This document shows, piece by piece, positions 36,046-54,159 of a DNA stretch of 64,000 nt. The notes beneath the pieces were generated by a model. That model had not been told where the DNA came from and did no database searches. It was given only the letters and a program-made list of their open reading frames with translations. Made by a program: the position numbers and the translations under genes. The stretch spans positions 3,224,001 through 3,288,000 of the forward strand of contig NZ_JARXYJ010000001.1 in assembly GCF_029894425.1 (NCBI RefSeq). The letters run 5' to 3'. Each line of letters opens with the position of its first letter. Position 1 is the stretch's first letter. This DNA is from Streptomyces sp. SAI-127 (GTDB taxonomy: Bacteria; Actinomycetota; Actinomycetes; Streptomycetales; Streptomycetaceae).

Positions 36046-36063
36046 TGTCGAAGCGCTTCGACA
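36046..36063. promoter_or_regulatory. LacI-type operator O1 upstream of the LacI gene
   Basis: TGTCGAAGCGCTTCGACA is a perfect 18-bp palindrome with the central CG typical of LacI/GalR operators. It lies 105 bases before the LacI start codon. The same core occurs at three other places in the locus. Confidence 0.85.
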
Positions 36064-36134
36064 ACCTATGGACACCCACTCCCGGGGGAGCTACTGTCGA
36101 ACCACCCTCACCCGCACCTGTTCGCACTGCGCAC

Positions 36135-36152
36135 TGTCGAAGCGCTTCACAA
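36135..36152. promoter_or_regulatory. LacI-type operator O2 overlapping the LacI leader
   Basis: TGTCGAAGCGCTTCACAA shares TCGAAGCGCTTC with O1 and lies only 16 bases before the ATG at 36168, 89 bases from O1. The spacing suits autorepression by a dimer or by a looping tetramer. Confidence 0.8.
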
Positions 36153-36167
36153 AGCTTGGAGAGCTGG

Positions 36168-37181
36168 ATGGTCACCCTCGCCGAGGTCGCCCAGCACGCC
36201 GGAGTCTCGGCGAGCACGGTGAGCTATGTCCTCAGTGGCAAGCGGTCCATCTCGACGACCACCCGGCAGCGAGTCGAGGAGAGCATCCGCGAGCTCGGCT
36301 ACCACCCGAACGCCGGCGCCCGCGCCCTCGCCAGCAGCAGGTCGAACATCATCGCGCTGATGATCCCGCTCCGCACCGACATGTACGTGCCGGTGATGAT
36401 GGAGATCGCCATCGCGGTGGCCACCACCGCACGGACGCACGGTTACGACGTCCTGCTGCTCACCGGCGAGGAGGGCCCCGACGCCGTACGACGCGTCACC
36501 GGCAGCGGGCTCGCCGACGCGATGATCCTGATGGACGTCGAACTCGACGACGAGCGGCTGCCGTTCCTGCGCGGCACCGACCAGCCCTCCGTACTCATCG
36601 GCCTCCCCGCCGACACGTCCGGGCTCACCTGCGTCGACCTCGACTTCCGGGCCACCGGCGCGCTGTGCGTCGAGCACCTCGCGAAGCTCGGCCACCGCGA
36701 CATCGCTGTCATCGGCGAGGCCCCCGCCGTCTACGAACGGCACACCGGTTTCGCCGAGCGCACTCTGGACGGACTCCGGTCGCGGGCCCAGGAGTTGGGC
36801 GTACGACTGCTGCACCGGCCGTGCGACGGCGGGTACGACGCGATGGCCGTGACGCTCGCCCGCGTCCTCGACGAGCGTCCGTCCACCACAGGCTTCGTCG
36901 TGCAGAACGAGCAGGCGGTCGAACCGCTGCTCGCGCTGCTGCGCCAGCAGGGCCGGGCCATTCCCGAGGACGTCTCGGTGGTCGCGATCTGCCCCGAACA
37001 GGTCGCCGTCCAGGCCTCGGTGCGGCTGACGTCGGTCGCCATTCCCGCCCAGGAGATGGGCCGGCACGCCCTGGAGCGGCTCGTCGCCAAGCTGGAGGGC
37101 CGCGGTGAGGACGAAGTCGTCCTGATCGAACCCGAGTTGACGGTCCGGGCGAGCACCGGCCCGGCGCCTTCGGCGTCCTGA
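36168..37181 (+). CDS. LacI-family regulator of the xyloglucan locus
   Basis: This 337-residue protein has the LacI helix-turn-helix and hinge (VTLAEVAQHAGVSASTVSYVLSGKRSIS, residues 2-30) and a periplasmic-binding-protein-like effector domain with typical GLTCVDLDFRATG and HRDIAVIGE stretches. ATG 36168 is preceded by GGAG. Two copies of a LacI-type palindrome lie just upstream, and further copies sit at the promoters of the transporter operon and of the GH3 gene, so it should control itself and the whole locus. The inducer is probably a xyloglucan-derived sugar (inferred from neighbours). GH31 follows 82 bases later on the same strand. Confidence 0.9.
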   Translation: MVTLAEVAQHAGVSASTVSYVLSGKRSISTTTRQRVEESIRELGYHPNAGARALASSRSNIIALMIPLRTDMYVPVMMEIAIAVATTARTHGYDVLLLTGEEGPDAVRRVTGSGLADAMILMDVELDDERLPFLRGTDQPSVLIGLPADTSGLTCVDLDFRATGALCVEHLAKLGHRDIAVIGEAPAVYERHTGFAERTLDGLRSRAQELGVRLLHRPCDGGYDAMAVTLARVLDERPSTTGFVVQNEQAVEPLLALLRQQGRAIPEDVSVVAICPEQVAVQASVRLTSVAIPAQEMGRHALERLVAKLEGRGEDEVVLIEPELTVRASTGPAPSAS

Positions 37182-37263: not shown

Positions 37264-39303
37264 GTGAATCAGCCTGCCGAAATCCAGCCCAAGGTCACTC
37301 TCGCGCAGTCGTCCCCCACCGTCGGCACGTTCCGTGAGCGGGACGGCGCGCTGGAGTGGAGCGGGCGCCAGGAGACCGTCCGTGTCGAGCCCTGGGGCCC
37401 GGACGCGGTCCGGGTGCGTGCCCGGCTCGGCGGGCCGATCCTCGAGGGGCTGCCGGGCGCCCTGCTGGACGAGCCGCCGGCCACCGAGAGCATGGTCAAG
37501 ATCGGGGACGGGGAAGGCCAGTTGACGGTGGGCGCGCTGACCGTCCACGTCGACGCCGAGGGACAGATCCGCTTTCTGCGCACCGCGGACTCCGCCGAAC
37601 TCCTCGCGGAGGCCCGCGCCCACTTCTGGTGGCCCGGCTCGCGTCTGTACACGGCGGTCGGCAACGGCCACCACCGTCTCGAGCAGCGCTTCGCCGCCTA
37701 CGCCGACGAGAAGCTGTACGGCCTCGGCCAGCACCAGCACGGCAAGCTGGATCAGAAGGGCCTGGTCCTCGACCTGATCCAGCGCAACGCCGAGGTGGGC
37801 ATCCCGGTTCTGGCCTCCAGCCGCGGCTACACCCTCCTCTGGAACAACCCGGCGATCGGCCGCGTGGAACTCGCCCGCAACGGCACGCGCTGGGTGGCCG
37901 ACTCGGCCCGCCAGATCGACTACTGGATCACCGCGGGCACCCCGGCCGACGGACAGCGCCGCTACAGCGGGGTCACCGGCCGGACGCCGATGCTGCCGGA
38001 GTGGGCGGCGGGCTTCTGGCAGTGCAAGCTGCGCTACCGCACCCAGGACGAACTCCTGTCCGTGGCACGGGAGTACAAGCGGCGCGGGCTTCCCATCTCG
38101 GCGATCGTCTGCGACTTCTTCCACTGGACGCACCTCGGCGAGTGGAAGTTCGACCCGGCCGAATGGCCCGACCCGGCGGCGATGGTCCGTGAACTGGAGG
38201 AGCTGGGCATCAAGTTGGTGGTCAGCGTCTGGCCGTCGGTGTCGCCGCTCAGCGAGAACCACCCGGTCATGGAGCAGCGCGGCTACTTCATCGGCACCCA
38301 GTACGGCCCGATGGCGCACGCCGACTGGCCCGACAAGGGAGTCGCCTCCACCGTCCAGGTCGCCTTCTACGACGCCACGAACCCGGAGGCCCGGGAGTTC
38401 ATGTGGTCGAAGGTCCGCGACAACTACCTTGCGCCGTACGGCATCACGGCCTTCTGGCTGGACGCCTGCGAGCCGGAGCTCAAGCCCGGCTTCCAGGAGA
38501 ACCTGCGCTACTGGGCGGGGCCCGGCCTCGAGGTCGGCAACATGTACCCGGCCGAGAACTCCCGCACCTTCCACGAGGGCCTGACGGCCGCCGGCGAGGA
38601 GGTCATCACCCTCAACCGCTCGGCCTGGGCGGGCAGCCAGCGCTACGGCGCCGCCCTGTGGTCCGGTGACATCGGCACCGACTTCCCGACCCTGCGCGAG
38701 CAGATCGCGGCGGGTCTCAACACCGCGATGTCCGGCATCCCGTGGTGGAACACGGACATCGGCGGCTTCCACGGCGGTGACCCGGACGACCCGGCGTACC
38801 GCGAGGTCATGATCCGCTGGTTCCAGTTCGGCGCCCTGTCCCCGCTCATGCGCCTGCACGGCTTCCGCGACCCGGGCATGCCGCTGGGACCGGAGATGAC
38901 CGGCGGCCCCAACGAGGTGTGGTCGTACGGCGAGGAGGCCGGCGCGATCATGGAGAAGTACCTGCGGCTGCGCGAGCGGCTGAAGCCGTACGTCCTGAAG
39001 GTCATGCGCGAGGCCCATGAGGAGGGCCTGACGCCGATGCGCCCGCTGTTCCTGGAGTTCCCGGACGACCAGGCGACGTGGACGGTCGACGACGCGTATC
39101 TCTTCGGCGCGGATCTTCTGGTCGCCCCGGTGCTCACGGCGGGCGCGACGGCCCGTACGACCTATCTCCCGGCAGGCGCGGCCTGGACGGACGCGTGGAC
39201 CGGTGAGACGTACGAGGGCGGCAGGACGGTGACCGTCGACGCCCCGCTGGACCGCATCCCGCTGTTCCTGCGGGACGGGGCGCGGCTTCCGGTGGCGGAG
39301 TAG
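37264..39303 (+). CDS. GH31 alpha-xylosidase (YicI-like), predicted cytoplasmic
   Basis: This 679-residue protein is a family 31 glycoside hydrolase. The nucleophile motif FWLDACEPE gives Asp400, and the acid/base is Asp469 in WSGDIGTDF. There is an N-terminal beta-sandwich and a C-terminal domain, without a signal peptide. The YicI-like subgroup removes alpha-1,6-xylose from xyloglucan oligosaccharides; alpha-glucosidase is the alternative. The GTG at 37264 follows AGGAG. It lies directly behind the LacI gene, so it shares its operators. Substrate is inferred from the GH74/GH12/GH42/GH95/GH3 neighbours. Confidence 0.88.
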   Translation: MNQPAEIQPKVTLAQSSPTVGTFRERDGALEWSGRQETVRVEPWGPDAVRVRARLGGPILEGLPGALLDEPPATESMVKIGDGEGQLTVGALTVHVDAEGQIRFLRTADSAELLAEARAHFWWPGSRLYTAVGNGHHRLEQRFAAYADEKLYGLGQHQHGKLDQKGLVLDLIQRNAEVGIPVLASSRGYTLLWNNPAIGRVELARNGTRWVADSARQIDYWITAGTPADGQRRYSGVTGRTPMLPEWAAGFWQCKLRYRTQDELLSVAREYKRRGLPISAIVCDFFHWTHLGEWKFDPAEWPDPAAMVRELEELGIKLVVSVWPSVSPLSENHPVMEQRGYFIGTQYGPMAHADWPDKGVASTVQVAFYDATNPEAREFMWSKVRDNYLAPYGITAFWLDACEPELKPGFQENLRYWAGPGLEVGNMYPAENSRTFHEGLTAAGEEVITLNRSAWAGSQRYGAALWSGDIGTDFPTLREQIAAGLNTAMSGIPWWNTDIGGFHGGDPDDPAYREVMIRWFQFGALSPLMRLHGFRDPGMPLGPEMTGGPNEVWSYGEEAGAIMEKYLRLRERLKPYVLKVMREAHEEGLTPMRPLFLEFPDDQATWTVDDAYLFGADLLVAPVLTAGATARTTYLPAGAAWTDAWTGETYEGGRTVTVDAPLDRIPLFLRDGARLPVAE

Positions 39304-39310
39304 CCGTACC

Positions 39311-39360: not shown

Positions 39361-39981
39361 TCAGCTTCCGCAGAGGGAGCGCAGGGCGCGGGCCAGGGCC
39401 CTGGTGTGCAGGGCGTCGAGGTGGTCCTCGTGATGGACCTGGAGGGCGGCGAGAATGAGTTCGGGACGGCAGGTGACCGCGCCGCGGTCGTCGGCGGTGG
39501 CGGCGAGGGCCTCGACCAGCGCGCTGGTCACTCGGTTGATCTCCTGCCGTACGACGCTCAGGTCCGGCTTGGTCGTCGGCGCCTCGTCGGGGTGGTCGGT
39601 CCACCGCTGGAACAGTCCGCGCTGGACGATCTTGTTCGCCTCGATCTGGTCGCGGAAGATCACCCGGATCTCGTCCGGGTCGGCGCCGAGCTGCTGGGCC
39701 TGGGCGGCGACGTTGTCGAGGACCTGCTGTTCGCGGGCGGGGTCGTCGATGGGGCTGTCGGTGCCCCACTTGGCGGCGGCGACCAGGTCGGCGGTGGCCA
39801 GGCGTTCGGCGGCGAGTTCGACGACGGGATGCAGGGCGGAGAGGGAGCGGGCGGTGGCGTGGGGTGCCGCGGCCGTCCCGGGGACGGGAACCGCGACCGC
39901 GGAACCCGTCGCGGTGAGAACGACGGCCGCGGTCGCGGTCACGGTGATCAGGGCACGTCGGAGGGGGGTGGTGGTACGCAT
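39361..39981 (-). CDS. Secreted chorismate mutase (AroQ gamma type)
   Basis: This 206-residue protein has a cleavable signal peptide (about residues 1-31). The mature part looks like the exported all-helical AroQ-gamma chorismate mutases, with RLATADLVAAAKWGTDSPID and DQIEANKIVQRGLFQRW. It would convert chorismate to prephenate outside the cell, where no substrate is expected, so its role is unclear. It is the last gene of the long minus-strand operon, 35 bases after the GH12 gene. Its place in a carbohydrate locus may be accidental. Confidence 0.78.
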   Translation of the reverse strand: MRTTTPLRRALITVTATAAVVLTATGSAVAVPVPGTAAAPHATARSLSALHPVVELAAERLATADLVAAAKWGTDSPIDDPAREQQVLDNVAAQAQQLGADPDEIRVIFRDQIEANKIVQRGLFQRWTDHPDEAPTTKPDLSVVRQEINRVTSALVEALAATADDRGAVTCRPELILAALQVHHEDHLDALHTRALARALRSLCGS

Positions 39982-40016: not shown

Positions 40017-40727
40017 TCAACTGCTGCTTACGGTCAGGTTGTTGGTGGTGAAGTTGAGACCACCGGACGAGCTGGTGATCTCGAAGCCGAACTGCACGTC
40101 ACCGATGGTCTCGTTGCCGAACCAGCCCTTGGTGTCCTTGATCCACTTCAGGATCGGGAGGATGTTGACCGTGCCGGAGCTGGAGTTGGAGGTGCGGACG
40201 AAGGAGAAGACCTCGTTCGCGCCGTTGGTGCCCTTGTAGACGGTCCAGGTGTGGCCGCCGAGCGTCACGTTGCCCTGCGAGCTGCCGAGCGGACCGACGG
40301 CTCCGGTCTTGTTGACCCAGAGCATGATCTCGTAGTCGTAGTCGGTGTCCCAGATGTCGTACGACGTGTTGTAGGCGCCGGACGACGGGACCGAGACGTT
40401 GTAGCTGCTGGAGAGCGAACCCAGCGAGGTGATCGACTTGTTGATCACCTTCTTGGAGTTGGGGTAGGACTTGATGCCGCCGGTGTTGGGGTGGTTGGCG
40501 TTGACGCCCCAGTTAGTGCCGGAGTTGGCCCAGATGCACTGGCTGCCGGCGCCGGAGCCCCAGATGTTGTTGTAGAGCGTGTAGCCGTTCAGGCTCGTGT
40601 TGGCCCACTGGTCGCAGGAGCTCCAGACGGCGGCGGAGGCCGGGGCCGAGGCGAGTCCGACGGTGGCGCCGATGGCCATCGCCGGGGCCAGCACCGCCAT
40701 GGTGATCTTGCGCAGAGTGCTTGCCAT
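40017..40727 (-). CDS. Secreted GH12 endoglucanase/xyloglucanase
   Basis: This 236-residue protein has a signal peptide (cleavage near residues 31-33, ASA-A) and a single jelly-roll GH12 domain. The nucleophile region DYEIMLW and the acid/base region VQFGFEIT carry the expected glutamates. There is no carbohydrate-binding module. GH12 enzymes cut beta-1,4-glucan, and several prefer xyloglucan; the neighbours make that likely here. ATG 40727 follows AAAGGGA. It lies 39 bases after the GH95 gene, on the same strand. Confidence 0.88.
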   Translation of the reverse strand: MASTLRKITMAVLAPAMAIGATVGLASAPASAAVWSSCDQWANTSLNGYTLYNNIWGSGAGSQCIWANSGTNWGVNANHPNTGGIKSYPNSKKVINKSITSLGSLSSSYNVSVPSSGAYNTSYDIWDTDYDYEIMLWVNKTGAVGPLGSSQGNVTLGGHTWTVYKGTNGANEVFSFVRTSNSSSGTVNILPILKWIKDTKGWFGNETIGDVQFGFEITSSSGGLNFTTNNLTVSSS

Positions 40728-40766: not shown

Positions 40767-42974
40767 TTACCACGCCTCCAGACGGAGGACGTGGTCTTCT
40801 CCGGCGACGAGGCAGAGCGGCTCGGTGCCGGAGGAAGTCCGGAGTTCGACGCGGTGGGTGCGGGTGGGGCGCAGCACCGCGGTCGCTTCGGTGGGGCTCC
40901 AGGTGAGGTCGAGGGCGGCCCCGAACCTGGTGCGGATGCCCCGTAGTTCACCTCGGGGGCAGGTGCTGGGAACCGCCGGGAGCAGCACCAGCCGGTCCGG
41001 TGTCGACTGCACGAGCATCTCGACGAGGACGGCGGGCAGGGTGTGGGCGGCGTCCGCGTTGTAGACGTTCCGGTTCGGGTAGTGCGCGCTCATCAGCGAG
41101 GCGTGGAAGAAGTCGCCCTTGAGGACCTGGCCGAGGGCGTGCGCGACCCGTTCGCCGTCGCGCAGCCGGGCCGCGACGAGGGCGTGGTGGAGATGGCCGT
41201 GTGCGGAGTCGTTCTCGGAGCCACGGAGTTCGAGGGCGCGGTGGGCGGCCGCGGCGAGGTCGGGGGTGTCGTAGGGGGTGATCTCGTCGAGTGGCCAGAC
41301 GCCGTAGAGGTGGCTGAGGTGGCGGTGGTCGTAGGTGTCGTCGAGGCCGGGCCAGGCCCATTCGGCGAGGGCGCCGTCGGCGTTGATCCGGTGGGGAGGG
41401 AGCCGGTCGGCGAGGGCGCGCCAGGCTTGTGCCCTCTCGGGGTGGTAGGCGGCGGCCGTTCGCAGGGCGTGCCGGGCGGCCGAGAGGTCCATCGCCGCGT
41501 TGATCGCGCCCCAACTGCCGTTCGCGGGGCGGTTCTCGGGCGAGTAGGAGGGGACGACGACGAGATGGCCGTCGGCGTCGGTGCGGGTGAGGAAGTCCTC
41601 GTAGAAGAGGGCGACTTCGGCGAGCGCACGGGCGGTGCGCGGGTCCTGTTCGCCGCGGGTCTCGTCGTGGTCGACGAGGGGCTTGAGCAGCCAGTCGGCG
41701 CCCGCGGTCCACAGGTGCAGCGGGTACTCACGGTTGAAGTGGTACGTCAGCCCGGACTCGCCGTCGGAGTGCGGCGGGGCCACGACACCGCGCGTGCCGA
41801 AGATCTCGCGGGCGTTGTCCTGCCAGTCGGGCAACTGACGCTGGATCAGGGAGGCGAGAGCTTCGGTGACTTCGGGAAGGGCGGCGCACGCGGCTGAAGC
41901 GGTCTGGAGGTTGACGTTGGCGTCGTTGGTGAACGCTCCCGACCATGCCGTGGCCCAGTCGCCGGTCCACAGGCCGGTCAGGCGGGGCGGGAAGAGGCCG
42001 CTGGAGGAGAGCAGGTGGTAGCGGCCGGCGGCGAAGAGTCGTTCCAGGAGGGCGGGGCTGTCCGGCCGTTCCAGCAACTGCGAGCCCGGCAGGGCGCGTT
42101 CGGCGGGGTCGGCGGCGAGGTCGAGGGTGACGCGTTCGTAGGCGGTGCGGTGGAGGGGGGTGTGCCGGTCGAGGAGTCGGGCGTAGGTGACGGACCCCGG
42201 CTCGGAACCGGATTCGGGGACCAGGTCCCGCAGTGCCTCGATGTGGGGTGCCGTGTCCAGTTCGCCGGTGTGGCGTACGACGCGGGTCAGCAGGAGAACG
42301 GACTCGGCACCGGTGACGTGCGCGCCCGGCGGGATGAGCGCGGTGCGGCCGCCCGTGGGGACGACCAGCGTGATGCCGGTGTAACGGCGGTCGCTGTCGG
42401 GGTAGCGGACGCAGAGGGTGAGCAGGGCCCCGTCGGCGGCGCGGACGACGCTCTGGCCGACCATCAGGGTGTCGGGTGCGCCCGGCAGCCGGTGATCCAG
42501 CGAGACGACCAGGCCCGCCGCCTCGACCTGCTGGACGATGACGTCGTCCGCGCGCGAGACGAAGACCTCGCTGCGCGACCCCTGGGACTCCGTGCGCAGG
42601 ACTCCGGTGGTGAAGTCGACGGACCGACGGTGGTCGGGAGTGGCCGCGCGCGGACGGCGCAGCCGGATCTGGAAGGCGGGGTGGAAGGGCTGCACCCACT
42701 GCAGCGGGCGTCCGTCCGTGAAGCGCTCGGCGGCGTCGCGCTCGCCGGCGAGCAACCGGTCCTGGAGCGCGGGGAGTTCGGCGGCGAGGCGGGGCGGGCG
42801 GGCGTGTTCGGCGCCGTTGGGGTGGACGAGGGTGTGGTGGGTGACGACGACCCGCTCGTCGTCGGGTTCGCCGAAGAGGAGGGCGCCGTGGTGGCCGTTG
42901 CCGCTGAGGAAGCCGTCCTCCCAGCGCGCGGCCGGTTCGGGTTCCCAGGTGCCGTGGACGGGTCCGTCGGTCAT
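40767..42974 (-). CDS. GH95 alpha-L-fucosidase, predicted cytoplasmic
   Basis: This 735-residue protein matches GH95: the N-terminal beta-domain with LSGNGHHGALLFGEP, the (alpha/alpha)6 barrel with FTNDANVNLQTA, and the conserved DHRHLSHLYGVWP. GH95 enzymes hydrolyse alpha-1,2-L-fucose (some act on alpha-L-galactose), which caps galactose in fucosylated xyloglucan. No signal peptide is seen. ATG 42974 overlaps the GH42 stop by four bases, so they are coupled. Confidence 0.88.
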   Translation of the reverse strand: MTDGPVHGTWEPEPAARWEDGFLSGNGHHGALLFGEPDDERVVVTHHTLVHPNGAEHARPPRLAAELPALQDRLLAGERDAAERFTDGRPLQWVQPFHPAFQIRLRRPRAATPDHRRSVDFTTGVLRTESQGSRSEVFVSRADDVIVQQVEAAGLVVSLDHRLPGAPDTLMVGQSVVRAADGALLTLCVRYPDSDRRYTGITLVVPTGGRTALIPPGAHVTGAESVLLLTRVVRHTGELDTAPHIEALRDLVPESGSEPGSVTYARLLDRHTPLHRTAYERVTLDLAADPAERALPGSQLLERPDSPALLERLFAAGRYHLLSSSGLFPPRLTGLWTGDWATAWSGAFTNDANVNLQTASAACAALPEVTEALASLIQRQLPDWQDNAREIFGTRGVVAPPHSDGESGLTYHFNREYPLHLWTAGADWLLKPLVDHDETRGEQDPRTARALAEVALFYEDFLTRTDADGHLVVVPSYSPENRPANGSWGAINAAMDLSAARHALRTAAAYHPERAQAWRALADRLPPHRINADGALAEWAWPGLDDTYDHRHLSHLYGVWPLDEITPYDTPDLAAAAHRALELRGSENDSAHGHLHHALVAARLRDGERVAHALGQVLKGDFFHASLMSAHYPNRNVYNADAAHTLPAVLVEMLVQSTPDRLVLLPAVPSTCPRGELRGIRTRFGAALDLTWSPTEATAVLRPTRTHRVELRTSSGTEPLCLVAGEDHVLRLEAW

Positions 42975-44953
42975 GGCTGGAGCACCGCCACTCCGTAGCG
43001 GCCCAGGGTGACCCGGTCCGTGCGGGACTGCCCCGTCAGCAGGTCCTGGTGGGTGCCGGCCACGTCGACCGTCACGGGCTCGCGGCCGTGGTTGAGCAGG
43101 AAGAGCAGGTCACCGCGGCGGACGGCCTCGACCTGGTCGGGCAGCGCGTCTAGGACCGGTCGCGCGCCCGCACCCGCAGCGATCCCGGCGAGGAGCTCGC
43201 GCAGGGCGCCCGGCTCGGGAAGCGTCGAGAGGTACCAGGCTCGGCCCCTGCGCAGCACGGCGGGCAGCCCGTCGAGCTCACCGCCCTTGTACGAGGCCTC
43301 GGTGGTGGCGTCCTCCGCCTTGTCGATCTCCTCCGACCACAGGGTGCCGCGGAAGTCGTCGCATTCCGCGTACTCCCCTGCGTCCAGCGGCCACCACTCG
43401 TGCAGGGTGCGGATGCCGAACAGTTCGCGCAGCCTGGCGTCCATGCCGCCGGGGCGCACCCGGTCGTCCTCGTCGGCGACGCCGGTGAGGAATCCGGAGA
43501 CGAGGGTGCCGCCCTGGCGGACGTAGGCGAGGAGGTTGTCGATCGCCGCGTCGGTGAGGGCGTACAGCTGGGGGACGACGACCACCTTGTAGGCGGTGAG
43601 GTCGTGTTCCGGGTGGGCGAAGTCGGTGGTGAGGTGGGCTTCCCAGAGCGCGCGGTGCCAGGCCTTGAGGACGTCGGCGTGGTCGACCTCACTGGAGAGG
43701 CGGCCTTCCTGGGAGCCGGCCCACCAGGCATGCCAGTCGTGCACGACGGCGATGTCGTTGGCGGAGTGACGCCCCGTCACCTGAGCGGAGATCGCTGTCA
43801 GTTCCGCTCCCAGCTGCTTGATCTCCTGATAGGTGCGTCCCTCCTCCCCCGCGTGGCTGACCATTCCGGAGTGGAACTTCTCCGCGCCCTGCCGGGACTG
43901 GCGCCACTGGAAGTAGCAGACGGCGTCCGCGCCGCGGGCGACGGCCTGCAGGGACCATAGGCGGTTCAGGCCACGGGGTTTGGGGTGGTTCACGCCCCGC
44001 CAGTTGACCGGTCCGGCGGCCTGCTCCATGAGCATCCACGGCCCACGCGCCTGCGAGCGGGTCATGTCCTGCACGAGAGCGCCCTGTTGGGCCCCGAGGG
44101 GATCGCGCGGGTCGGGATAGAGGTCGACGGAGACGACGTCCTCCTCCTCGGCCCACCGCCAGGCGTCCTGGCCCACCCACAGCGGCATGAAGTTGCTGGT
44201 CACAGGGATGTGCGGGGTGGCCACGCGGACGATGTCCCGCTCGGCGAGGTAGCACTCCAGGAGCATGTCGGAGGTGAACCGCTTGAAGTCCAGCACCTGG
44301 CTGGGGTTCTTCATGTAGTGGGCGTGGCGAGGAGTGTGGATCTCGGCCCAGTCGCCGTAACCCTGGCTCCAGAAGGCGGTTCCCCAGGCGGAGTTGAGGG
44401 CGTCGAGGGAGCCGTAGCGGTCCTGCAGCCAGGTCCGGAAGCGGGCGGCGGCCTGGTCGCTCCAGTCGTACGTGCAGTACTCGTTGTTGATGTGCCACAT
44501 CGTGAGGGCCGGGTGGCCGCCGTAGCGGGCGGCGAGGTCCTCGGTGATGGCGGCGGCGTGACGGCGGTAGGTGGCGCTGGAGTGCGAGAAGTGCTGGCGC
44601 CCGCCCCAGTACTCGGTGCGGCCGTCCTCGGTGACGGGCAGGGTGTCGGGGTGCAGATGGCCCATCCACGGCGGTGGTGAGGAGGTGGGGGTGGCGAGGA
44701 CGACCCCGATGCCGTTGGCGTGCATGAGGTCCATCAGCCGGTCCAGCCAGCCGAAGTCCCGGTCCCCCGGCCGGGGTTCGAGCCTGGCCCAGGAGAAGAC
44801 CCCGAGGGTGACGGAGTTGACGCCGGCGGCCCTCATCAGCCGGACGTCCTCGAGCCAGGTCTCCTCGGGCCACTGCTCGGGGTTGTAGTCGCCGCCGTAG
44901 AGGATGCGGCCGCGGGTGGCGTCGCCCAGGTCCGGCCTCTTCTCCACGGCCAT
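42971..44953 (-). CDS. GH42 beta-galactosidase, predicted cytoplasmic
   Basis: This 660-residue protein has the GH42 TIM barrel with GGDYNPEQW near the start, acid/base Glu158 in NNEYC and nucleophile Glu310 in MLMEQAAGPVNW, then the trimerisation domain. It would remove beta-1,2-galactose from xylosyl side chains once fucose is gone. There is no signal peptide. The start ATG overlaps the GH74 stop by one base (TGATG) and its stop overlaps the GH95 start. The activity on galactosyl xyloglucan is inferred from context. Confidence 0.9.
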   Translation of the reverse strand: MAVEKRPDLGDATRGRILYGGDYNPEQWPEETWLEDVRLMRAAGVNSVTLGVFSWARLEPRPGDRDFGWLDRLMDLMHANGIGVVLATPTSSPPPWMGHLHPDTLPVTEDGRTEYWGGRQHFSHSSATYRRHAAAITEDLAARYGGHPALTMWHINNEYCTYDWSDQAAARFRTWLQDRYGSLDALNSAWGTAFWSQGYGDWAEIHTPRHAHYMKNPSQVLDFKRFTSDMLLECYLAERDIVRVATPHIPVTSNFMPLWVGQDAWRWAEEEDVVSVDLYPDPRDPLGAQQGALVQDMTRSQARGPWMLMEQAAGPVNWRGVNHPKPRGLNRLWSLQAVARGADAVCYFQWRQSRQGAEKFHSGMVSHAGEEGRTYQEIKQLGAELTAISAQVTGRHSANDIAVVHDWHAWWAGSQEGRLSSEVDHADVLKAWHRALWEAHLTTDFAHPEHDLTAYKVVVVPQLYALTDAAIDNLLAYVRQGGTLVSGFLTGVADEDDRVRPGGMDARLRELFGIRTLHEWWPLDAGEYAECDDFRGTLWSEEIDKAEDATTEASYKGGELDGLPAVLRRGRAWYLSTLPEPGALRELLAGIAAGAGARPVLDALPDQVEAVRRGDLLFLLNHGREPVTVDVAGTHQDLLTGQSRTDRVTLGRYGVAVLQP

Positions 44954-47339: not shown

Positions 47340-48266
47340 TCAGCCCTTCACCGCACCCGTCAACATGCCCTTCTTGAAATGCCGCTGGACGAACGGAGAA
47401 GCAACAGCCACCGGAATCAACGCGAGCACCATCACGGCCATCTGCAACCCCAGCGCCGACAACTGCCCCGTACGCACCGCCTGCTGCAACCCCGTAGGGT
47501 TCGCCGTGTTCTTCTGGACCAGCTGAATGAGCACGTTCTGCAAAGGCATCATGTCCTGGTCGCTGAGATAGATGGACGCGTTGAACCAGGCACTCCAGTA
47601 CCCGACCGCGTAGAACAGCGAGATCACGGCCAGCACGGCCCGCGACAGCGGCATGATGATGGTCAGCAGGATCCGCAGGTCACCGGCCCCGTCGATGCGC
47701 GCGGACTCGGTGAGCTCGGGCGAGATGCCCATGAAGAAGGCCCGCAGCACCAGGATGTTGAAGACGCTGACCGCGCTCGGCAGGATGAGCGACAGATAGG
47801 TGTCGGTCAGTCCCAGCGACTGCACCAGCAGATACGTCGGGATGAGCCCGGCGCCGAAGAACATCGTCGCCATCATGACGACCAGGAAGAGCCGGTGCCC
47901 CAGGCTCCCCGGCCGCGACAGACCGTAGGCCGCCAGCACCGACACCGCCATGGAGAACACCGTGCCGGTGAGCGTGACGCCGACCGAGACCATGATGGCC
48001 CGGCTGACCTGGCCGCCGCTGAGCAGTTCGGTGTAGTTGACGAAGGTGATGCCCTGGGGGATCACGACCAGGCCGCCGACCCGGTCGATCACCGGCTTCG
48101 GGGACAGGCTGGTGACGATCACGATCCACAGCGGGCCGAGCACCCCCAGGCAGCACAGCGCGAGGAAGCCGCTCTTCGCGGTGATGCCGGCCTTGCTGGG
48201 CGGCTCCTCCCACACCGGGCGGGCGGGGGCCTTGAGACTGCGGACGAGCTGCGTGTTGAGGCTCAC
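47340..48266 (-). CDS. ABC transporter permease 2 (carbohydrate type, LplC/YtcP-like)
   Basis: This 308-residue membrane protein has about six transmembrane helices and the binding-protein-dependent loop motif ESARIDGAGDLRILLTIIMP (EAA loop), which contacts the ATPase. The GTG at 48266 overlaps the stop of permease 1 by four bases (GTGA), so the two are made together. It is the second half of a CUT1-type importer for oligosaccharides; no ATPase gene is in the locus. Confidence 0.92.
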   Translation of the reverse strand: MSLNTQLVRSLKAPARPVWEEPPSKAGITAKSGFLALCCLGVLGPLWIVIVTSLSPKPVIDRVGGLVVIPQGITFVNYTELLSGGQVSRAIMVSVGVTLTGTVFSMAVSVLAAYGLSRPGSLGHRLFLVVMMATMFFGAGLIPTYLLVQSLGLTDTYLSLILPSAVSVFNILVLRAFFMGISPELTESARIDGAGDLRILLTIIMPLSRAVLAVISLFYAVGYWSAWFNASIYLSDQDMMPLQNVLIQLVQKNTANPTGLQQAVRTGQLSALGLQMAVMVLALIPVAVASPFVQRHFKKGMLTGAVKG

Positions 48267-49315
48267 TTCTGGTACACCCCCTGCTCGCCGAGCAGGTGCG
48301 CGAACTTGTTCGCACCCAGCACGAGGCAGATTCCTATGACTCCCTTGACGAGGCCGACCGCGGCCGCGTAGCTGAAGTCGCCGTTCTGGATACCCATGTT
48401 CCACACATAGGTGTCGAGGACCTCGCTGGCCCCCACGCCGACCGCGTCCCGCTGGAGCAGGAACTGCTCGAAGCCGACGCTGAGCGCGTCACCCACCCGC
48501 AGCACCAGCAGCAGCGCGATCACCGGGCGCAGTGCGGGCAGCGTGACGTGCCACATGCGCCGCCAGCGCCCGGCGCCGTCCATCGCGGCGGCCTCGTACA
48601 GGTCGGTGCTGACCGCGGCGAGCGCGGCGAGGAAGACGATGATCCCCCAGCCGGCGTCCTTCCACACGGCCTGCGCGGTGACCAGGTACTTGAACAGGTC
48701 CGCGTTGGTCATCAGGTCGAAGCCGCTCCAGCCGTGGTCCTCCAGGGTCTGGGCGATGATGCCCGCGCCGCCGAAGATCTGCTGGAAGACGGTGACGACG
48801 AGGACCCACGAGAAGAAGTGCGGCAGGTACATGATCGCCTGCGCCACGGCCCGGACCCGGGGCCGGATCACGCTGTTGATGAGCAGCGCGAGGGCGATGG
48901 GGATCGGGAAGAACAGCACCAGCTGGAGCACGAAGAGGACGATGGTGTTCTTCGCGGCGTCCCAGAACAGCGGGTCGTCGATCATCCGCGAGAACTGCTC
49001 GACGCCGACCCAGGGGCTGTGGAAGATCGCGGTGACGCCGTTGCTGGAGACGTACGGGTCGTACTCCTGGAAGGCGACGACGTTGCCCAGCAGCGGGACG
49101 TAGTTGAAGAGCAGGAGCAGGAGGATGACGGGCAGCGTCATCAGGATGAGCGCGCGGTCGCGGCGCAGCCGGACCCGGAAGGGGACCTTGCCCGCCTTGC
49201 TCGCCTTTCGCGGCACCCGCACCTTCGCCACCGCCGCGCCGACCGCGGCCGTCGGTTCCTCGACGGCCGCGGGAGGACGAGTCCCGTCGGGCCTGCTCCC
49301 GGCCGTGAGAGACAT
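48263..49315 (-). CDS. ABC transporter permease 1 (carbohydrate type, LplB-like)
   Basis: This 350-residue protein has a disordered N-terminus of about 45 residues, then about six transmembrane helices with the EAA loop YEAAAMDGAGRWRRMWHVTLP. It pairs with the 47340-48266 permease. The ATG at 49315 overlaps the stop of the binding-protein gene by one base (TGATG). Confidence 0.92.
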   Translation of the reverse strand: MSLTAGSRPDGTRPPAAVEEPTAAVGAAVAKVRVPRKASKAGKVPFRVRLRRDRALILMTLPVILLLLLFNYVPLLGNVVAFQEYDPYVSSNGVTAIFHSPWVGVEQFSRMIDDPLFWDAAKNTIVLFVLQLVLFFPIPIALALLINSVIRPRVRAVAQAIMYLPHFFSWVLVVTVFQQIFGGAGIIAQTLEDHGWSGFDLMTNADLFKYLVTAQAVWKDAGWGIIVFLAALAAVSTDLYEAAAMDGAGRWRRMWHVTLPALRPVIALLLVLRVGDALSVGFEQFLLQRDAVGVGASEVLDTYVWNMGIQNGDFSYAAAVGLVKGVIGICLVLGANKFAHLLGEQGVYQK

Positions 49316-50994
49316 CAGTTGGCGCTGCCGTTCTTGTCGATGAGCTGCTTGTACCAGTCGCGCAGCTTGTCGCCGCCGGAGGACTTCCACGTGGAGATGG
49401 CGGCCTGCACGTCGGACAGCTTGCGGTTGCCGCGCACGTAGTCGATCTCCAGCTGCTCGAACTGGCTGGAGAGGTTGGCGTAGCGGGTCGGCTCGACGAT
49501 GTTCATGCCGAAGGTGGACGTCTTCTTCATGAACGCCCCCATCCGCTGCTGCCACTCGACCTGCTTGCGGGCGACCTCGGGGAAGTCGGGGTGGGCGAAG
49601 TAGGCGGCCGGTGCGGCCAGCATGACCCAGGCGTTGAGCACCTCGGAGTTGCCCAGGTCGTTCTTGACCGGGACGCCGTCCTTGACCGTGTAGTGGGTGC
49701 CCTCGACGCCGTAGTCGACGAGCATCCGCTCCTTGGTGCCGTAGGGCGCGGCCGAGAAGTCGGCGGCGGCCAGCGCGTTCTCGATCGTCGCCTTCGAGGC
49801 GCCCTTGCGGATCAGCGACCAGATAGTGGCGGGCGAGGAGGCGTACAGCTTCGGGTTGCCACCGTCCGCACCGAAGAGGTCCATGGCGTCGATGACGAGG
49901 TCCGGGTTGGACGAGGCCTGTTCGGAGACCTTCCCGTACCAGTCGGCGATGTTGGTGTTCCAGACGAGGATCTGTCCGGCCGTGAAGCGCTGGCCCGCGT
50001 CACCCGAGCGCGCCTTGTCGTCGGGGTGGACCACACCCGCGTCGAACAACTTGCGGACCCACTCCAGGGCTTCGAGGTACTCGGGCTGCTCGATGCGGTA
50101 CGTCAGCTTGCCGTCGGACCCGATGTCCCAGCCGATCGGCCCGGAACCACGGACGCCGAAGAAGCTCCACGCGGACCAGGTCATGTCACCGCAGGCCCAC
50201 ACCTTGGCCTTGGAGCTGGTGGCCTCCTTGGCCCAGCTCATGAACTCATCGGCCGACTTGGGTACCGAGTAGCCCTTCTTGTCGAAGACGTCCTTGCGGT
50301 ACAGGGGCGCGATCCAGTTCGCGGTGGCGGCGGGCATCGGGATGCCGCGCAGCGCACCGCCGAAGATGCCCATGCGCCAGGCGTCGGAGGGGATCGCGGC
50401 CAGGTTCGGGTACTTCTTGACCTTGTCGCCCGCCAGGTAGGGGCCGAGGTCCATGAACTTCGCGGTGACGGCGTTCGAGATCTTGCCGACCAGTTCCCAG
50501 CTCGGCACGACCACCATGTCGGGTATGGAGCTGGAGGCGAGGACGGCGCCGAGCTTCTGGCCGTAGGTGTTGCCGTCCTGGTTCTGCCAGGTGACCTTGG
50601 TGCCCGCCGCGGCGTCGAGTGCCGTGTAGTAGGCGCAGCCGGCCTTCGGCGGGGAGCCCCAGAACGGGGACATGATCTTGATGGGGGCGCCGGTGCCGAG
50701 CTTCTCCGGGACCGAGGTCTTGAGGGCGGCGAGGTCGACCTTGCCGGTGTAGCCGGCTGCCGAGCCGTTCTTGGACGGCAGGTCCGGGTTCGCGACCGTG
50801 CTGGCGACGAATGCCGGCAGCAGCTTGTCCGCGGCCTTGCCCGACGTGGTCCCTTCGCGCTCGCCGCTGTCCGAGCCGCCACAGGCGGCAAGCAGCGGCA
50901 TCCCGCCCGCCACCGCTGCGGTGGCGACCGCGGTGGAGGCGAGGAAGCTTCTCCGGCTCGGCCCGGACGAGGCGGAAGCGGCGTTCGGCGTCAT
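49315..50994 (-). CDS. Oligosaccharide-binding lipoprotein of the ABC importer
   Basis: This 559-residue protein begins with a twin-arginine signal (SRRSFLAS) and lipobox LLAAC (Cys38), so it is exported and lipid-anchored. The mature part is a large family 1-type (LplA/YtcQ-like) solute-binding protein, longer than the usual 430 residues, which fits binding of branched oligosaccharides. It is the first gene of the operon (binding protein, two permeases, GH74, GH42, GH95, GH12, chorismate mutase), about 118 bases after the operator at 51112. Confidence 0.9.
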   Translation of the reverse strand: MTPNAASASSGPSRRSFLASTAVATAAVAGGMPLLAACGGSDSGEREGTTSGKAADKLLPAFVASTVANPDLPSKNGSAAGYTGKVDLAALKTSVPEKLGTGAPIKIMSPFWGSPPKAGCAYYTALDAAAGTKVTWQNQDGNTYGQKLGAVLASSSIPDMVVVPSWELVGKISNAVTAKFMDLGPYLAGDKVKKYPNLAAIPSDAWRMGIFGGALRGIPMPAATANWIAPLYRKDVFDKKGYSVPKSADEFMSWAKEATSSKAKVWACGDMTWSAWSFFGVRGSGPIGWDIGSDGKLTYRIEQPEYLEALEWVRKLFDAGVVHPDDKARSGDAGQRFTAGQILVWNTNIADWYGKVSEQASSNPDLVIDAMDLFGADGGNPKLYASSPATIWSLIRKGASKATIENALAAADFSAAPYGTKERMLVDYGVEGTHYTVKDGVPVKNDLGNSEVLNAWVMLAAPAAYFAHPDFPEVARKQVEWQQRMGAFMKKTSTFGMNIVEPTRYANLSSQFEQLEIDYVRGNRKLSDVQAAISTWKSSGGDKLRDWYKQLIDKNGSAN

Positions 50995-51111: not shown

Positions 51112-51125
51112 TCGAAGCGCTTCGA
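51112..51125. promoter_or_regulatory. LacI-type operator O3, transporter operon
   Basis: TCGAAGCGCTTCGA is a perfect palindrome placed just downstream of the predicted -10 of the leftward operon promoter (51136-51141), where a bound repressor would block transcription. Confidence 0.85.
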
Positions 51126-51135
51126 TGTTGCTGTG

Positions 51136-51164: not shown

Positions 51165-51271
51165 GGGTCGATCCCAAGATTCCTCCGAGGCATAAGGGGT
51201 GACCTTTTCTTATGCACCGCTTGAAGTGACGGTGTTGATCTCTTGACACCCACCCCGATGTCGAATGAGCA

Positions 51272-51285
51272 TCGAAGCGCTTCGA
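51272..51285. promoter_or_regulatory. LacI-type operator O4, GH3 gene
   Basis: TCGAAGCGCTTCGA lies 36 bases before the GTG at 51322 and 24 bases after a perfect TTGACA (51243-51248). No good -10 is visible at the matching distance. Confidence 0.85.
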
Positions 51286-51321
51286 AAGCATCGAACCGAT
51301 CCATCGCAAGGGGATCCCCAC

Positions 51322-54159
51322 GTGACCGCACACCCGCCGCACACACCACCGTTTCGCGATCCGCACCTGCCGTTCGCGAAGCGCATCGACGATCTGCTGT
51401 CGCGGCTGACCCTCGACGAGAAGACCGGATTCCTGCACCAGTTCGCCCCGGCCGTGGAACGGCTCGGCATCTCCGCGTTCCGCACCGGCCAGGAGGCGCT
51501 GCACGGCGTCGCGTGGATGGGACCCGCGACGGTCTTCCCGCAGGCGGTGGGCCTCGGCGCGACCTGGAACACCGATCTCGTACGCCGGGTCGGCGAGGCG
51601 GTGTCCAAGGAGGTCCGGGCGATGCGCGCCCGCGACGACAGGGTCGGCCTCAACATCTGGGCACCGACGGTCAATCTGCTCCGGCACCCGCTGTGGGGCC
51701 GTAACGAGGAGGGCTACTCGGAGGACCCGAAGCTCACCTCGGCCATCGCCACCGCCTACACCCACGGACTGCGCGGCGACCACCCCACGTACTGGCGCAC
51801 CGCCCCGGTGCTCAAGCACTGGCTCGCCCACAACAACGAGACGGACCGGGCCACGTCGTCGAGCTCGGTGCGTCCGCGCGTGCTGCACGAGTACGACCTG
51901 CGGGCCTTCCGCGAGACGGTCGAGGCGGGCGCGGTGGCCGGAGTGATGCCGGCGTACAACCTGGTCAACGGTCGGCCCAACCACGTCTCGCCGTATCTGC
52001 GCGAGCACCTGCGCGCCTGGACCGACGAGGAGCTGCTGGTCTGCTCGGACGCGGGCGCGCCCTCCAACCTGGTCGACCACGAGCACTACTTCGGCACCCA
52101 CGAGGAGGCCACCGCGGCCTCCCTGCGGGCCGGCGTCGACAGCTTCACCGACCACGGCACGGACAGCGCGCAGATGGTCGGGCGGATCCGGAAGGCCTAC
52201 GAGCAGGGCCTGTTGACCGAGGCCGACATCGACACCGCGGTCCGCCGGCAGCTCTCGGTCCGCTTCCGGCTCGGTGAGTTCGACCCGCACGACGACCCGC
52301 ACGCCGGCGTCAGGGACTTCGACACCCCGGCACACCGCGCGCTCGCCCAGGAGGCCGCCGAGCAGGCGATCGTGCTGCTCAGGAACGACGGCGTGCTCCC
52401 GCTCGCCCCCGGCACCCGGCTCGCCGTGGTCGGCCTGCTCGCCGACGAGTGCAAGCTCGACTGGTACAGCGGCACGCTCATCCACCGCTCCACCCCGCTG
52501 GAGGGGCTGTACGAGCGGTTCGGCGCCGAGCGGGTGGCGTTCGCGGAGGGTGTGGACCGGGTCCGGCTGAAGACCTCCGCCGGGACGTTTCTGCATGTCC
52601 TGGCCTCCGAAGACGGCGAGGACGAGGTGCGCGGCGCCGACGGCGCCCTGGACCCGGCACTGCTCGCGGGCCGCACGGACCTGCCTGCGCTGACGACCGA
52701 CGCGACCGGCACCGAGTTCGCACTGATCGACTGGGACGAGGGCGTCCTCACGCTCCGCGCCCCCGACGGCCGCTATCTCTCCGTCGCCGAGGACGGTTAC
52801 CTGCGCGCCTCCGCCGACCAGCCGGGGGGCTGGGTCGTCCAGGAGACCTTCCGCCTGGAACCGCACGCGAACGGTCACCTCCTCAGGCACATCGGCACGG
52901 GCCGCCACGTCACTGTCGCCGCGGACGGAGTGAAGGTTGCCGACGAGAACGCGGAAACTTTCGAGCTGATCATCGCCGAACGCGGTGAGGACGCAGTGAC
53001 CCGCCTCTCCTCCGAGGCCGACGTGGTCCTGGTCGTCGCGGGCAACGACCCGCACATCAACGGCCGCGAGACCGAGGACCGGGCGTCCCTGCGGCTCCCC
53101 GTCCACCAAGAGCGCCTGCTGCGGGCGGCGCGCGCCGCCAACCCCCGCACGGTCCTGGCCCTGGTCTCGGCCTACCCCTACGCGGTCGACACGTCCGACC
53201 TGGCCGCGGCGCTCTGGACGGCCCACGGCGGCCAGGCGGCCGGCACCGCCCTGGCCCGCGTCCTGGCCGGGGACGTCTCTCCCGCGGGCCGCCTCCCGCA
53301 GACCTGGTACGAGAACGACGCCGACCTCCCCGGCCTCCTCGACTACGACGTCATCGGGAGCCGCCAGACATACCTGTACTTCGAGGGCACGCCCCTGTTC
53401 CCGTTCGGCCACGGGCTGTCGTACACGTCCTTCTCGTACGGCGATCTCACGTCCCGTGTGACGGACGGGACGCTGCATGTCTCGTTCGCGATCACGAACA
53501 CCGGTGACGTGACCGCCGACGAGGTCGCCCAGCTCTACACCCGCGCGGTGGACCCGGCACTCCCCCGCCCGCGCCGCGAACTCGTGGCGCACCGGCGCGT
53601 GACGCTCACCCCGGGCGCGCGGGAGGAGCTGTCCTTCGAAGTCCCCTTGCGTGCCTTCGAGTTCTGGGACGTGGCGCAGGGCCGCTCGCGCCTGGAGGCG
53701 GGCCCGTACGAGCTGCTGGCCGGTGCCTCCAGCGAGGACATCCGGCTGCGGACGACGGTCCTGCTCGACGGCGAGCCCGGCACGCCGCGCCCCGTGCTCC
53801 GACGGGGCCTGGAGGGCGCGGACTTCGACGAGCAGAGCGGTGTCGAGATCGTCGACCGGACGAGGACGGCGGGCGACGCGGTGACGGCGGCCGAGGGCCG
53901 TACCGGCGAACTGGTCTACCGGGACTGCGACTTCGGGGACGGCGTCGCCGAGGTCACCATGACGGTCTCCGGCGAGGGCGCGGTCGAACTGTCGCTGGAC
54001 GGGGGCACGGTGCTCGCCGTGGTGCAGGTGGAGGAATCCGACTCCGGACCGTACGACTACACCACGCTCGGCGCCGGAATCGTCGCCGAGGGCGTGCACG
54101 ACGTGCACCTCAGGCTGCGCGGCCCACTGCGGCTCGCGCATGTCGGCTTCTCCGGCTGA
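51322..54159 (+). CDS. GH3 beta-glucosidase with an inserted beta-trefoil-like domain, predicted cytoplasmic
   Basis: This 945-residue protein has the GH3 N-domain with nucleophile Asp243 in LLVCSDAGAPSNL, the GH3 C-domain, and a fibronectin III-like domain (HVSFAITNTGDVTADEVAQLY). Between residues about 425 and 555 a segment with LRAPDGRYLSVAEDGYL and LLRHIGTGRHVTVAADG looks like a fascin/beta-trefoil fold inserted in the C-domain. The last about 130 residues resemble a CBM6-type sandwich. No signal peptide is seen, so it likely trims glucose from imported oligosaccharides. The GTG at 51322 follows AAGGGG at about 9 bases. Its promoter is divergent from the transporter operon and carries operator O4. 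Confidence 0.88.
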   Translation: MTAHPPHTPPFRDPHLPFAKRIDDLLSRLTLDEKTGFLHQFAPAVERLGISAFRTGQEALHGVAWMGPATVFPQAVGLGATWNTDLVRRVGEAVSKEVRAMRARDDRVGLNIWAPTVNLLRHPLWGRNEEGYSEDPKLTSAIATAYTHGLRGDHPTYWRTAPVLKHWLAHNNETDRATSSSSVRPRVLHEYDLRAFRETVEAGAVAGVMPAYNLVNGRPNHVSPYLREHLRAWTDEELLVCSDAGAPSNLVDHEHYFGTHEEATAASLRAGVDSFTDHGTDSAQMVGRIRKAYEQGLLTEADIDTAVRRQLSVRFRLGEFDPHDDPHAGVRDFDTPAHRALAQEAAEQAIVLLRNDGVLPLAPGTRLAVVGLLADECKLDWYSGTLIHRSTPLEGLYERFGAERVAFAEGVDRVRLKTSAGTFLHVLASEDGEDEVRGADGALDPALLAGRTDLPALTTDATGTEFALIDWDEGVLTLRAPDGRYLSVAEDGYLRASADQPGGWVVQETFRLEPHANGHLLRHIGTGRHVTVAADGVKVADENAETFELIIAERGEDAVTRLSSEADVVLVVAGNDPHINGRETEDRASLRLPVHQERLLRAARAANPRTVLALVSAYPYAVDTSDLAAALWTAHGGQAAGTALARVLAGDVSPAGRLPQTWYENDADLPGLLDYDVIGSRQTYLYFEGTPLFPFGHGLSYTSFSYGDLTSRVTDGTLHVSFAITNTGDVTADEVAQLYTRAVDPALPRPRRELVAHRRVTLTPGAREELSFEVPLRAFEFWDVAQGRSRLEAGPYELLAGASSEDIRLRTTVLLDGEPGTPRPVLRRGLEGADFDEQSGVEIVDRTRTAGDAVTAAEGRTGELVYRDCDFGDGVAEVTMTVSGEGAVELSLDGGTVLAVVQVEESDSGPYDYTTLGAGIVAEGVHDVHLRLRGPLRLAHVGFSG

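Follow-up and report, generated by a model that had tools for sequence, protein, structure and literature searches.

A putative LacI-repressed xyloglucan-oligosaccharide locus with an exchangeable importer in Streptomyces

Xyloglucan is a main hemicellulose of dicot walls, and members of the genus Streptomyces are abundant in soil and on roots. We analyzed a stretch of 64,000 nucleotides (hereafter the window, C1:3224001-3288000) from the 10.7-Mb genome of Streptomyces sp. SAI-127, which is assembled in three contigs. The window harbors a candidate xyloglucan locus at 36168-54159, in which genes for a LacI-family regulator, glycoside hydrolases (GHs), and an ATP-binding cassette (ABC) importer lie together. 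An earlier note, made from the letters of the window, had described it as a complete fucogalacto-xyloglucan utilization locus under one LacI-type regulator.

A closely related Gram-positive system has been described in Ruminiclostridium cellulolyticum, a member of a different phylum, in which an ABC importer consisting of two membrane proteins and a solute-binding protein (SBP) takes up large xyloglucan oligosaccharides, and Gal42A, Xyl31A, and Glu3A are cytosolic (PMC4780118). The Streptomyces locus resembles it in linking ABC importer genes to genes for apparently cytosolic GH42, GH31, and GH3 enzymes, a likeness of families and not of activities. The clostridial cluster includes a two-component system, whereas the Streptomyces locus has a LacI gene; the clostridial backbone cutters are the cellulosomal Cel9X, Cel9U, Cel44O, and Xgh74A, which the accessible text of that report does not place in the cluster (PMC4780118), whereas secreted GH74 and GH12 enzymes, as well as GH95, are encoded inside the Streptomyces locus. 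Among the proteins scanned at 36168-54159, LacI was the sole regulator and no two-component system with an AraC-like regulator was found. Therefore, we class the locus as a variant of the Gram-positive xyloglucan system of Ruminiclostridium in which a LacI gene is linked to the other genes, and not as the clostridial form.

Other systems share parts of this arrangement. In Anaerocellum bescii, Athe_2052-2054 encode an SBP and two permeases, with the ATPase elsewhere and a GH31 gene nearby, and Athe_2052 is a xyloglucan-binding SBP of the AlgQ/FusA cluster G group; according to the available part of the report, the genes for GH74 (CelF) and GH42 lie in other regions and a putative fucosidase gene is 'not far' (PMC12710961). 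The xyloglucan utilization locus of Xanthomonas likewise unites GH74, GH31, GH95, and a beta-galactosidase, and has its own features in TonB-dependent transporters, a GH35 instead of a GH42 enzyme, and an acetylesterase, with no ABC importer mentioned in the accessible text (PMC8245568). SusC/SusD or TonB-dependent transporter domains were absent from the window proteins scanned, and ABC permeases were present instead. The combination of a LacI regulator, an ABC importer, a cytosolic glycosidase, and a palindromic operator also recalls the CelR/CebR cellulose regulons of actinobacteria, as far as these are described in the accessible text (PMC3377646). The earlier note knew of no characterized actinobacterial locus with this layout; we also found no paper on a streptomycete xyloglucan locus among the top-ranked results in the open-licence literature, but the claim of novelty must be narrowed, as the locus is common in its genus and comparable clostridial systems have been described. 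A biochemical study of GH74 enzymes from S. avermitilis reportedly exists.

We propose, with a probability of about 0.8, that the window carries a LacI-repressed xyloglucan-oligosaccharide locus with an exchangeable importer. Outside the cell, xyloglucan would be cut by GH74 and GH12 into oligosaccharides with a backbone of four glucose units, which a lipoprotein (the SBP) and two permeases (PermA and PermB) would import with power from an ATPase encoded elsewhere. Inside the cell, trimming would proceed from the outside in, with GH95 taking off fucose, GH42 galactose, GH31 xylose, and GH3 glucose. As long as substrate is absent, LacI would occupy the palindrome TCGAAGCGCTTCGA in the promoter of its own gene and in the divergent promoters of the lipoprotein and GH3 genes. 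Homologous recombination, either between strains or with a second copy, would replace the segment for the lipoprotein and permeases, which is bounded upstream by the conserved promoter and signal-peptide DNA, and strains would thereby keep their enzymes and change their importer.

Protein family profile scans of 36168-54159 identified genes for LacI, GH31, GH12, GH95, GH42, GH74, two permeases, the lipoprotein, and GH3 (Table 1), and Pfam and Protein Data Bank (PDB) matches thus bore out every gene that the earlier note had named. For comparison, we used the best 80 of 138 related loci from one GH74 scan of named genomes (L numbers denote loci or regions, G numbers genomes), including 62 full-context loci of at least 22 kb each. 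All ten genes occurred in one order and orientation in 49 of these 62, the LacI gene was present in 52, and 13 were without one or more genes. At L039, L057, L059, and L067, the other nine genes were missing at the thresholds used, and each had GH74 and at least one exact operator. Locus L083 (S. flavidovirens) had GH3, GH74, GH42, GH95, and both operators, but its GH3-GH74 interval gave no importer match. Of 121 genomes sampled evenly from the genus, 56 had the SBP (E <= 1e-90) and 44 had GH74 (E <= 1e-170); a GH74 that was nearly full-length and at least 70% identical was found in 38, all with an SBP within about 5 kb, and a LacI at least 70% identical in 66 (the last two counts and the SBP distances by eye). 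These results indicate that the locus is common in Streptomyces and no curiosity of one strain.

The palindrome was conserved together with the genes. Five exact copies of TCGAAGCGCTTCGA were found in the genome, one upstream of lacI, two between the SBP and GH3 genes, and two at unlinked sites. The 62 full-context loci contained 174 exact copies, whereas the reversed pattern occurred once and 199 palindromes with shuffled halves averaged 0.01 copies. One exact operator upstream of lacI and two in the GH3-SBP gap were present in all 49 complete loci, which come from other Streptomyces. This supports control of the locus by LacI, and we infer that LacI represses through TCGAAGCGCTTCGA. Upstream of lacI, relatives usually carried a pair of GAAGCGCTTC cores spaced 88-91 bp apart. 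The putative -10 hexamer of the SBP gene is TAACCT on the minus strand (51136-51141), and the putative GH3 promoter consists of TTGACA (51243-51248), 17 bases, and TGAGCA. These hexamers are a reading of conserved sequence that a strict sigma-70 scan does not find; the scan returned no promoters (shuffles, mean 0.5), and a terminator scan returned 5, which is chance level (shuffles, 4.8). No GH74-specific operator was found in the 146-base gap between GH74 and PermB with up to 3 mismatches. A second GH74 gene of the genome (C1:2209258, 47% identical) had neither the core of this palindrome nor a GGAGCGCTCC palindrome in 5.3 kb. Operator spacing was rejected as a sign of DNA looping, as the spacing classes (148, 157.5, 166, 169, 182.5, 193.5, and 206) were equaled by random sets in 387 of 5000 draws.

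Table 1. Features of the putative xyloglucan locus and its operators (window positions).
Feature	Position	Strand	Remarks
Operator 1, perfect palindrome TCGAAGCGCTTCGA	36048..36061	.	Upstream of lacI
Variant operator TCGAAGCGCTTCAC	36137..36150	.	2 mismatches; just upstream of lacI
LacI-family regulator	36168..37181	+	PF00356, 64.3 bits; PF13377, 99.9 bits
GH31, predicted alpha-xylosidase, no signal peptide	37264..39303	+	PF01055; best PDB match MeXyl31, 666.2 bits
Secreted chorismate mutase (predicted)	39361..39981	-	NF006741 and TIGR01806, both above cut-off
GH12, predicted secreted endo-glucanase/xyloglucanase	40017..40727	-	PF01670, 84.6 bits; open reading frame (ORF) open from 40742
GH95, putative alpha-L-fucosidase, no signal peptide	40767..42974	-	PF22124, 213.1 bits
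GH42, predicted beta-galactosidase type, no signal peptide	42971..44953	-	PF02449, 493.1 bits
GH74, predicted endo-xyloglucanase, secreted (Tat-type)	44953..47193	-	BNR-repeat Pfam match; PDB matches
Importer permease PermB, type A cassette	47340..48266	-	PF00528 (BPD_transp_1), 26.0 bits (cut-off 26.4)
Importer permease PermA, type A cassette	48263..49315	-	PF00528 (BPD_transp_1), 57.9 bits
Solute-binding lipoprotein (SBP), type A cassette, cluster G-like fold (predicted)	49315..50994	-	Profile match and predicted structure
5' end of SBP gene, codons 1-42, signal peptide and lipobox	50869..50994	-	Common to both importer types; upstream edge of exchanged segment
Operator 2	51112..51125	.	Exact TCGAAGCGCTTCGA; GH3-SBP gap, about 10 bases downstream of putative SBP -10
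Operator 3	51272..51285	.	Exact TCGAAGCGCTTCGA; GH3-SBP gap, directly after putative GH3 promoter
GH3 with Fn3-like and CBM6 domains, no signal peptide	51322..54159	+	PF00933, PF01915, PF14310, PF03422

Two types of importer were found within this locus. Irrespective of the identity of the neighboring enzymes, SBPs were either at least 78% identical to that of the window (type A) or about 60-71% identical (type B); the SBP, PermA, and PermB of the window are thus type A. The comparison included 67 of 81 rows (80 loci and the window) with an SBP stretch of >85% coverage and >50% identity, L029 being dropped for a cut SBP match; 61 of them also had GH74, GH42, and GH3 (14 A, 47 B), and 57 both permeases as well. 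Mean identity between types was 63.7% for SBP, 70.6% for PermA, and 76.2% for PermB, and 82.4%, 82.8%, and 82.5% for GH74, GH42, and GH3, respectively, for which the values within type B were 82.4, 82.4, and 82.7%. In quick IQ-TREE trees with SH-aLRT support only, type A formed one side of a branch with support 100 in the importer tree, whereas the GH74+GH42+GH3 tree called for four changes of type, each of them forced by starred branches. Residues were disjoint between types at 101 columns (44 of 572 in SBP, 29 of 392 in PermA, and 28 of 311 in PermB), compared with 0 of 4,700 columns in GH74, GH42, GH3, GH95, GH12, GH31, and LacI together; these counts rest on 16 A and 51 B rows, or fewer for genes absent from a locus. 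In the 121-genome sample, an SBP of at least 79% was found in 8 genomes, and 18 genomes had only SBPs of 46-59%, which were assigned to neither type (by eye).

The edges of the exchanged segment were visible in the DNA. Compared with type B loci, the window lost identity at about 50.9-50.5 kb and regained it at about 47.0-47.25 kb, and distant type A loci showed the reverse pattern. A-B and B-B identity were equal over the stretch that begins 170 bases before the SBP gene and ends at its codon 42 (base +126); past codon 42, the values were 0.720 versus 0.780, followed by 0.718 versus 0.818. Promoter, operator, and signal peptide are therefore common to both types and mark the upstream edge of the exchange. 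Individual pairs told the same story, as L056 and L066 shared 92.7% residue identity in the flanks and 69.2% in the importer. Exchange also occurred within type B, where L009 and L010 were 95.5% identical in the flanks and 74.1% in the importer, and L018 and L054 were 84.1% and 96.6% identical, respectively. Among 903 B-B pairs, which are not independent, importer identity was uncorrelated with flank identity (rho -0.05). Taken together, the importer appears to be repeatedly exchanged inside an otherwise constant locus.

Some genomes had a further GH74 gene with the operator; at L067 and L072 it stood by itself or beside remnants of an importer, and at L065 beside a type A importer. Genome G247 carried a type B importer in its main locus (C1:7786259) and a type A importer beside a second GH74 gene (C1:698978), and S. 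lanatus had both L065 (A) and L068 (B). Such second GH74-importer copies could serve as donors. The same genomes speak for a different history, in which an ancestor had both importers and its lineages lost one or the other without any exchange. We consider old paralogy of this kind unlikely. At equal flank identity (0.80-0.84), A-A importers had a mean identity of 0.90-0.91 and B-B importers of 0.81-0.82, which makes the type A cassettes of different flank lineages appear younger than the DNA around them; moreover, the promoter and signal-peptide DNA is common to both types at the same place, and exchange is seen inside type B as well. A further question is which protein reads the operator. 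The near-identical palindrome TGTCGAAGCGCTTCGACG lies in the locus of a 52% identical LacI paralogue (L006), and the operator might be read mainly by this or another LacI, with a different role for the local one. This is quite unlikely, in view of the exact copy in the lacI promoter of every complete locus, as autoregulation predicts, and of the LacI gene kept in most full-context loci. Finally, cellulose, mixed-linkage glucan, and xylan-derived sugars are also among the substrates of the GH12 and GH3 families, and the top NCBIfam match of GH3 was a xylosidase model, below its cut-off. It is nevertheless very unlikely that the locus serves a related pathway for beta-glucan or cello-oligosaccharides and that xyloglucan is a side substrate, as GH74, the alpha-xylosidase-like GH31, GH95, and GH42 jointly fit xyloglucan side chains; in addition, the CelR palindrome, TGGGAGCGCTCCCA, differs from TCGAAGCGCTTCGA and had no match in the window with up to 2 mismatches.

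Several points weigh against a LacI-repressed xyloglucan-oligosaccharide locus with an exchangeable importer, or limit it. Because the types were defined on SBP identity, the disjoint SBP columns are circular, and it is the permease columns that test the types independently; gaps are involved in 24 of the 101 columns. Among A-A pairs, importer identity did follow flank identity (rho 0.75, 91 pairs, not independent). In type B, GH74 identity correlated weakly with that of GH42 and GH3 (0.18 and 0.31), and part of the discordance may therefore be locus-wide recombination. All related loci stem from a single GH74 scan, as stated above. The palindrome beside the paralogous LacI makes its reader uncertain; the single regulator claimed by the earlier note is thus supported by the operators of the complete loci and qualified by the two unlinked sites, one of which is this paralogue's. 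The specificities of GH3, GH95, and GH42 are not readable from sequence. In addition, among 15 regions of 20 kb of the same family in other genera (L112-L126), GH74 stood beside GH42, GH95, and GH12 in only four (L112, L113, L114, and L124).

In these four regions, GH74 was 63-72% identical. One or two exact palindromes were present in 10 of the 15 (L112-L115, L117-L121, and L124). Six regions had GH42 and GH95, with or without an importer, and no GH74 match, of which L115, L117, and L121 carried the palindrome, and L116, L122, and L123 carried a LacI of 64-65% and no palindrome. L119 contained GH42, GH95, and a palindrome, L118 and L120 only GH95 and a palindrome, and L125 and L126 a distant GH95. 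Owing to these patchy gene sets, the full layout is best kept within the genus.

A broader reading is tentative and less likely than not. The enzyme set switched by LacI would be fixed and the importer modular, its DNA between roughly codon 43 of the lipoprotein gene and the far end of the second permease gene being supplied by another strain or a second GH74-importer copy. Types A and B would admit different xyloglucan chemistries, for example fucogalacto- versus arabino-xyloglucan, and unlinked GH36 and GH43 genes behind the same operator would extend the regulon to arabinosylated xyloglucan. If so, strains would adapt rapidly to their host plant by changing importer type. In a study of tomato, quantitative trait loci (QTL) on chromosomes 6 and 11 were linked to variants that Streptomyces carries in a GH74 xyloglucanase, in an alpha-xylosidase and an alpha-galactosidase, and in a binding protein, and the accessible text names a xyloglucan fucosyltransferase among the plant genes of the QTL regions (PMC9203511); these variants may be linked to the present locus, which we regard as a lead only. 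With three operators, one regulator gene, and one importer, the locus is a ready genetic system, and importer exchange makes the tuning of soil bacteria to plant wall chemistry approachable by a swap experiment.

The unlinked GH36 and GH43 genes (L005, 6811-10705; C1:1143810 region, same genome) lie behind the palindrome, which is followed by a variant copy at a distance of 120 bases; a GH29 gene is located further upstream, and the 14-kb region gave no match to LacI. The nearest model of this GH36 was a beta-L-arabinopyranosidase (550 bits, cut-off 1100). The operator pair was kept in the two closest relatives (L131 and L132), and also in L173 and L174. As a sure regulon member, the gene pair was rejected and kept as a lead, the palindrome core being absent from 27 matched loci (L133-L159, the last few of which are distant GH36 proteins); longer regions for L133 and L134 (L175 and L176) had a palindrome between a GH74 relative and GH3. 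The other unlinked site, L006 (723-7136; C1:6355121 region), carried the LacI paralogue, GH31, a solute-binding protein, permeases, and the same palindrome. A further region, L172 (1-19000, G160:C34), contained a distant LacI (66%), permeases (52-58%), an SBP (34%), GH3 (58%), GH42 (46%), GH36, and one palindrome core near GH3, and is perhaps a sister system for another oligosaccharide.

The enzymes were compared with solved structures. The GH31 was nearer to characterized alpha-xylosidases than to alpha-glucosidases in the ranking of PDB matches, in which MeXyl31 was followed by 7kmp (alpha-xylosidase, 342.7 bits), 6dru, 2xvg (alpha-xylosidase), and BoGH31A as the other members of the top five; the NCBIfam alpha-xylosidase model PRK10658 scored 242.5 bits, below its cut-off of 606. 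The identity of GH74 follows from matches to 18 distinct PDB sequences, several of which are named xyloglucanase and the best 13 of which scored 424-497 bits, and the domain scan gave no carbohydrate-binding module match in it. The Asp residues of ARTDIGGAYRW and GLGDIG aligned with those of Xgh74A (2cn2) and others, which we take to be the catalytic D70 and D480, and both positions were Asp in 81 of 81 rows. A Trp pair at subsites +3/+5 (W347/W348) is required for the processivity of PoXEG74, a GH74 enzyme of P. odorifer (PMC10317168). In the alignment, with W347/W348 mapped by our own numbering, 6p2n carried WW at the pair and the window protein WA; the first Trp was kept in all 81 rows, and the second position was Ala (64), Ser (16), or Thr (1), never Trp. 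With the second Trp replaced, the window GH74 is predicted to be endo-dissociative rather than processive.

The best PDB match of GH42 was a beta-galactosidase (9ta3, 564.6 bits). The GH95 appears divergent: its best PDB match was 7kmq (194.6 bits), presumably XacAfc95 of Xanthomonas, and it matched no NCBIfam model. Its LAEW aligned with LQEW of 7kmq, and the Asp of NAD with that of QIDGN in a gapped stretch (by eye), and we take the aligned Glu and Asp to be the catalytic residues. Specificity for L-fucose or L-galactose in this family is not decided by the candidate residue, as far as the accessible text goes (PMC8245568). The GH12 best matched NopAA (6sdu, 150.3 bits), which has xyloglucan hydrolase activity according to the title of a paper. 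GH3 had a moderate best PDB match (250.3 bits), and all its NCBIfam matches were below cut-off. It is the putative beta-glucosidase of the pathway and, because its matches are only moderate, the weakest link. Backbone cutting by GH74 and GH12 and the alpha-xylosidase activity of GH31 follow from family knowledge, and GH95, GH42, and GH3 would remove fucose, galactose, and glucose.

A structure prediction of the SBP from 17 close sequences was discarded because of its low pLDDT (49.5), and one from 22 more diverse sequences reached 88.6. The best matches of this model were chondroitin/glycosaminoglycan SBPs, AlgQ1, AlgQ2, and FusA, which points to a large SBP with the cluster G (AlgQ1/AlgQ2/FusA-type) fold. 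The Athe_2052 structure, 9PMY, was not among the SBP matches listed and may not be in the structure set searched. Import of xyloglucan oligosaccharides by the SBP and permeases is supported by this fold and by the closest solved relatives of the enzymes (MeXyl31 and GH74 xyloglucanases). GH74 (with SRR), GH12, and the SBP (SRR and LAAC) had a hydrophobic N-terminal stretch (1.82-2.14), whereas GH95, GH42, GH31, and GH3 had none (0.32-0.42). These values come not from SignalP but from a crude hydropathy test, in which the cytosolic LacI itself scores 1.27; by this measure, GH74, GH12, and the lipoprotein look exported and the four other enzymes do not, in agreement with the earlier note. Its interpretation as a xyloglucan locus with oligosaccharide import and outside-in trimming in the cytosol was likewise supported, with the specificities of GH95, GH42, and GH3 as the inferred part. 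To call the locus complete was too strong, as neither a transporter ATPase nor a monosaccharide-catabolism enzyme was found among the scanned proteins of 36168-54159, and L-fucose isomerase (PF02952) was not found in the genome.

Overlaps of 1-4 bases join GH95/GH42, GH42/GH74, PermB/PermA, and PermA/SBP, and the genes from GH12 to the SBP are therefore likely read from the SBP side, in one or two units. GH31 lies downstream of lacI on the plus strand, outside the GH12-SBP operon. The likely start codons are GTG at 37264 for GH31 and GTG at 51322 for GH3, since the longest GH3 ORF would start upstream of an operator. The chorismate mutase gene sits within the interval, between GH31 and GH12, and is not part of the locus; it was found in 14 of the 62 full-context loci. 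Its product is of the gamma-subclass, with a start resembling a signal peptide. Adjoining the locus, 54284-61265 of the window encodes an aldehyde dehydrogenase, a PucR-type regulator, a 715-aa ORF without a Pfam match, and a class III aminotransferase, which looks like a nitrogen-catabolism cluster. On the other side, 22546-33096 contains isoprenoid-pathway genes (dxr and gcpE types), an M50 peptidase gene, and a prolyl-tRNA-synthetase-type gene, which are ordinary core genes.

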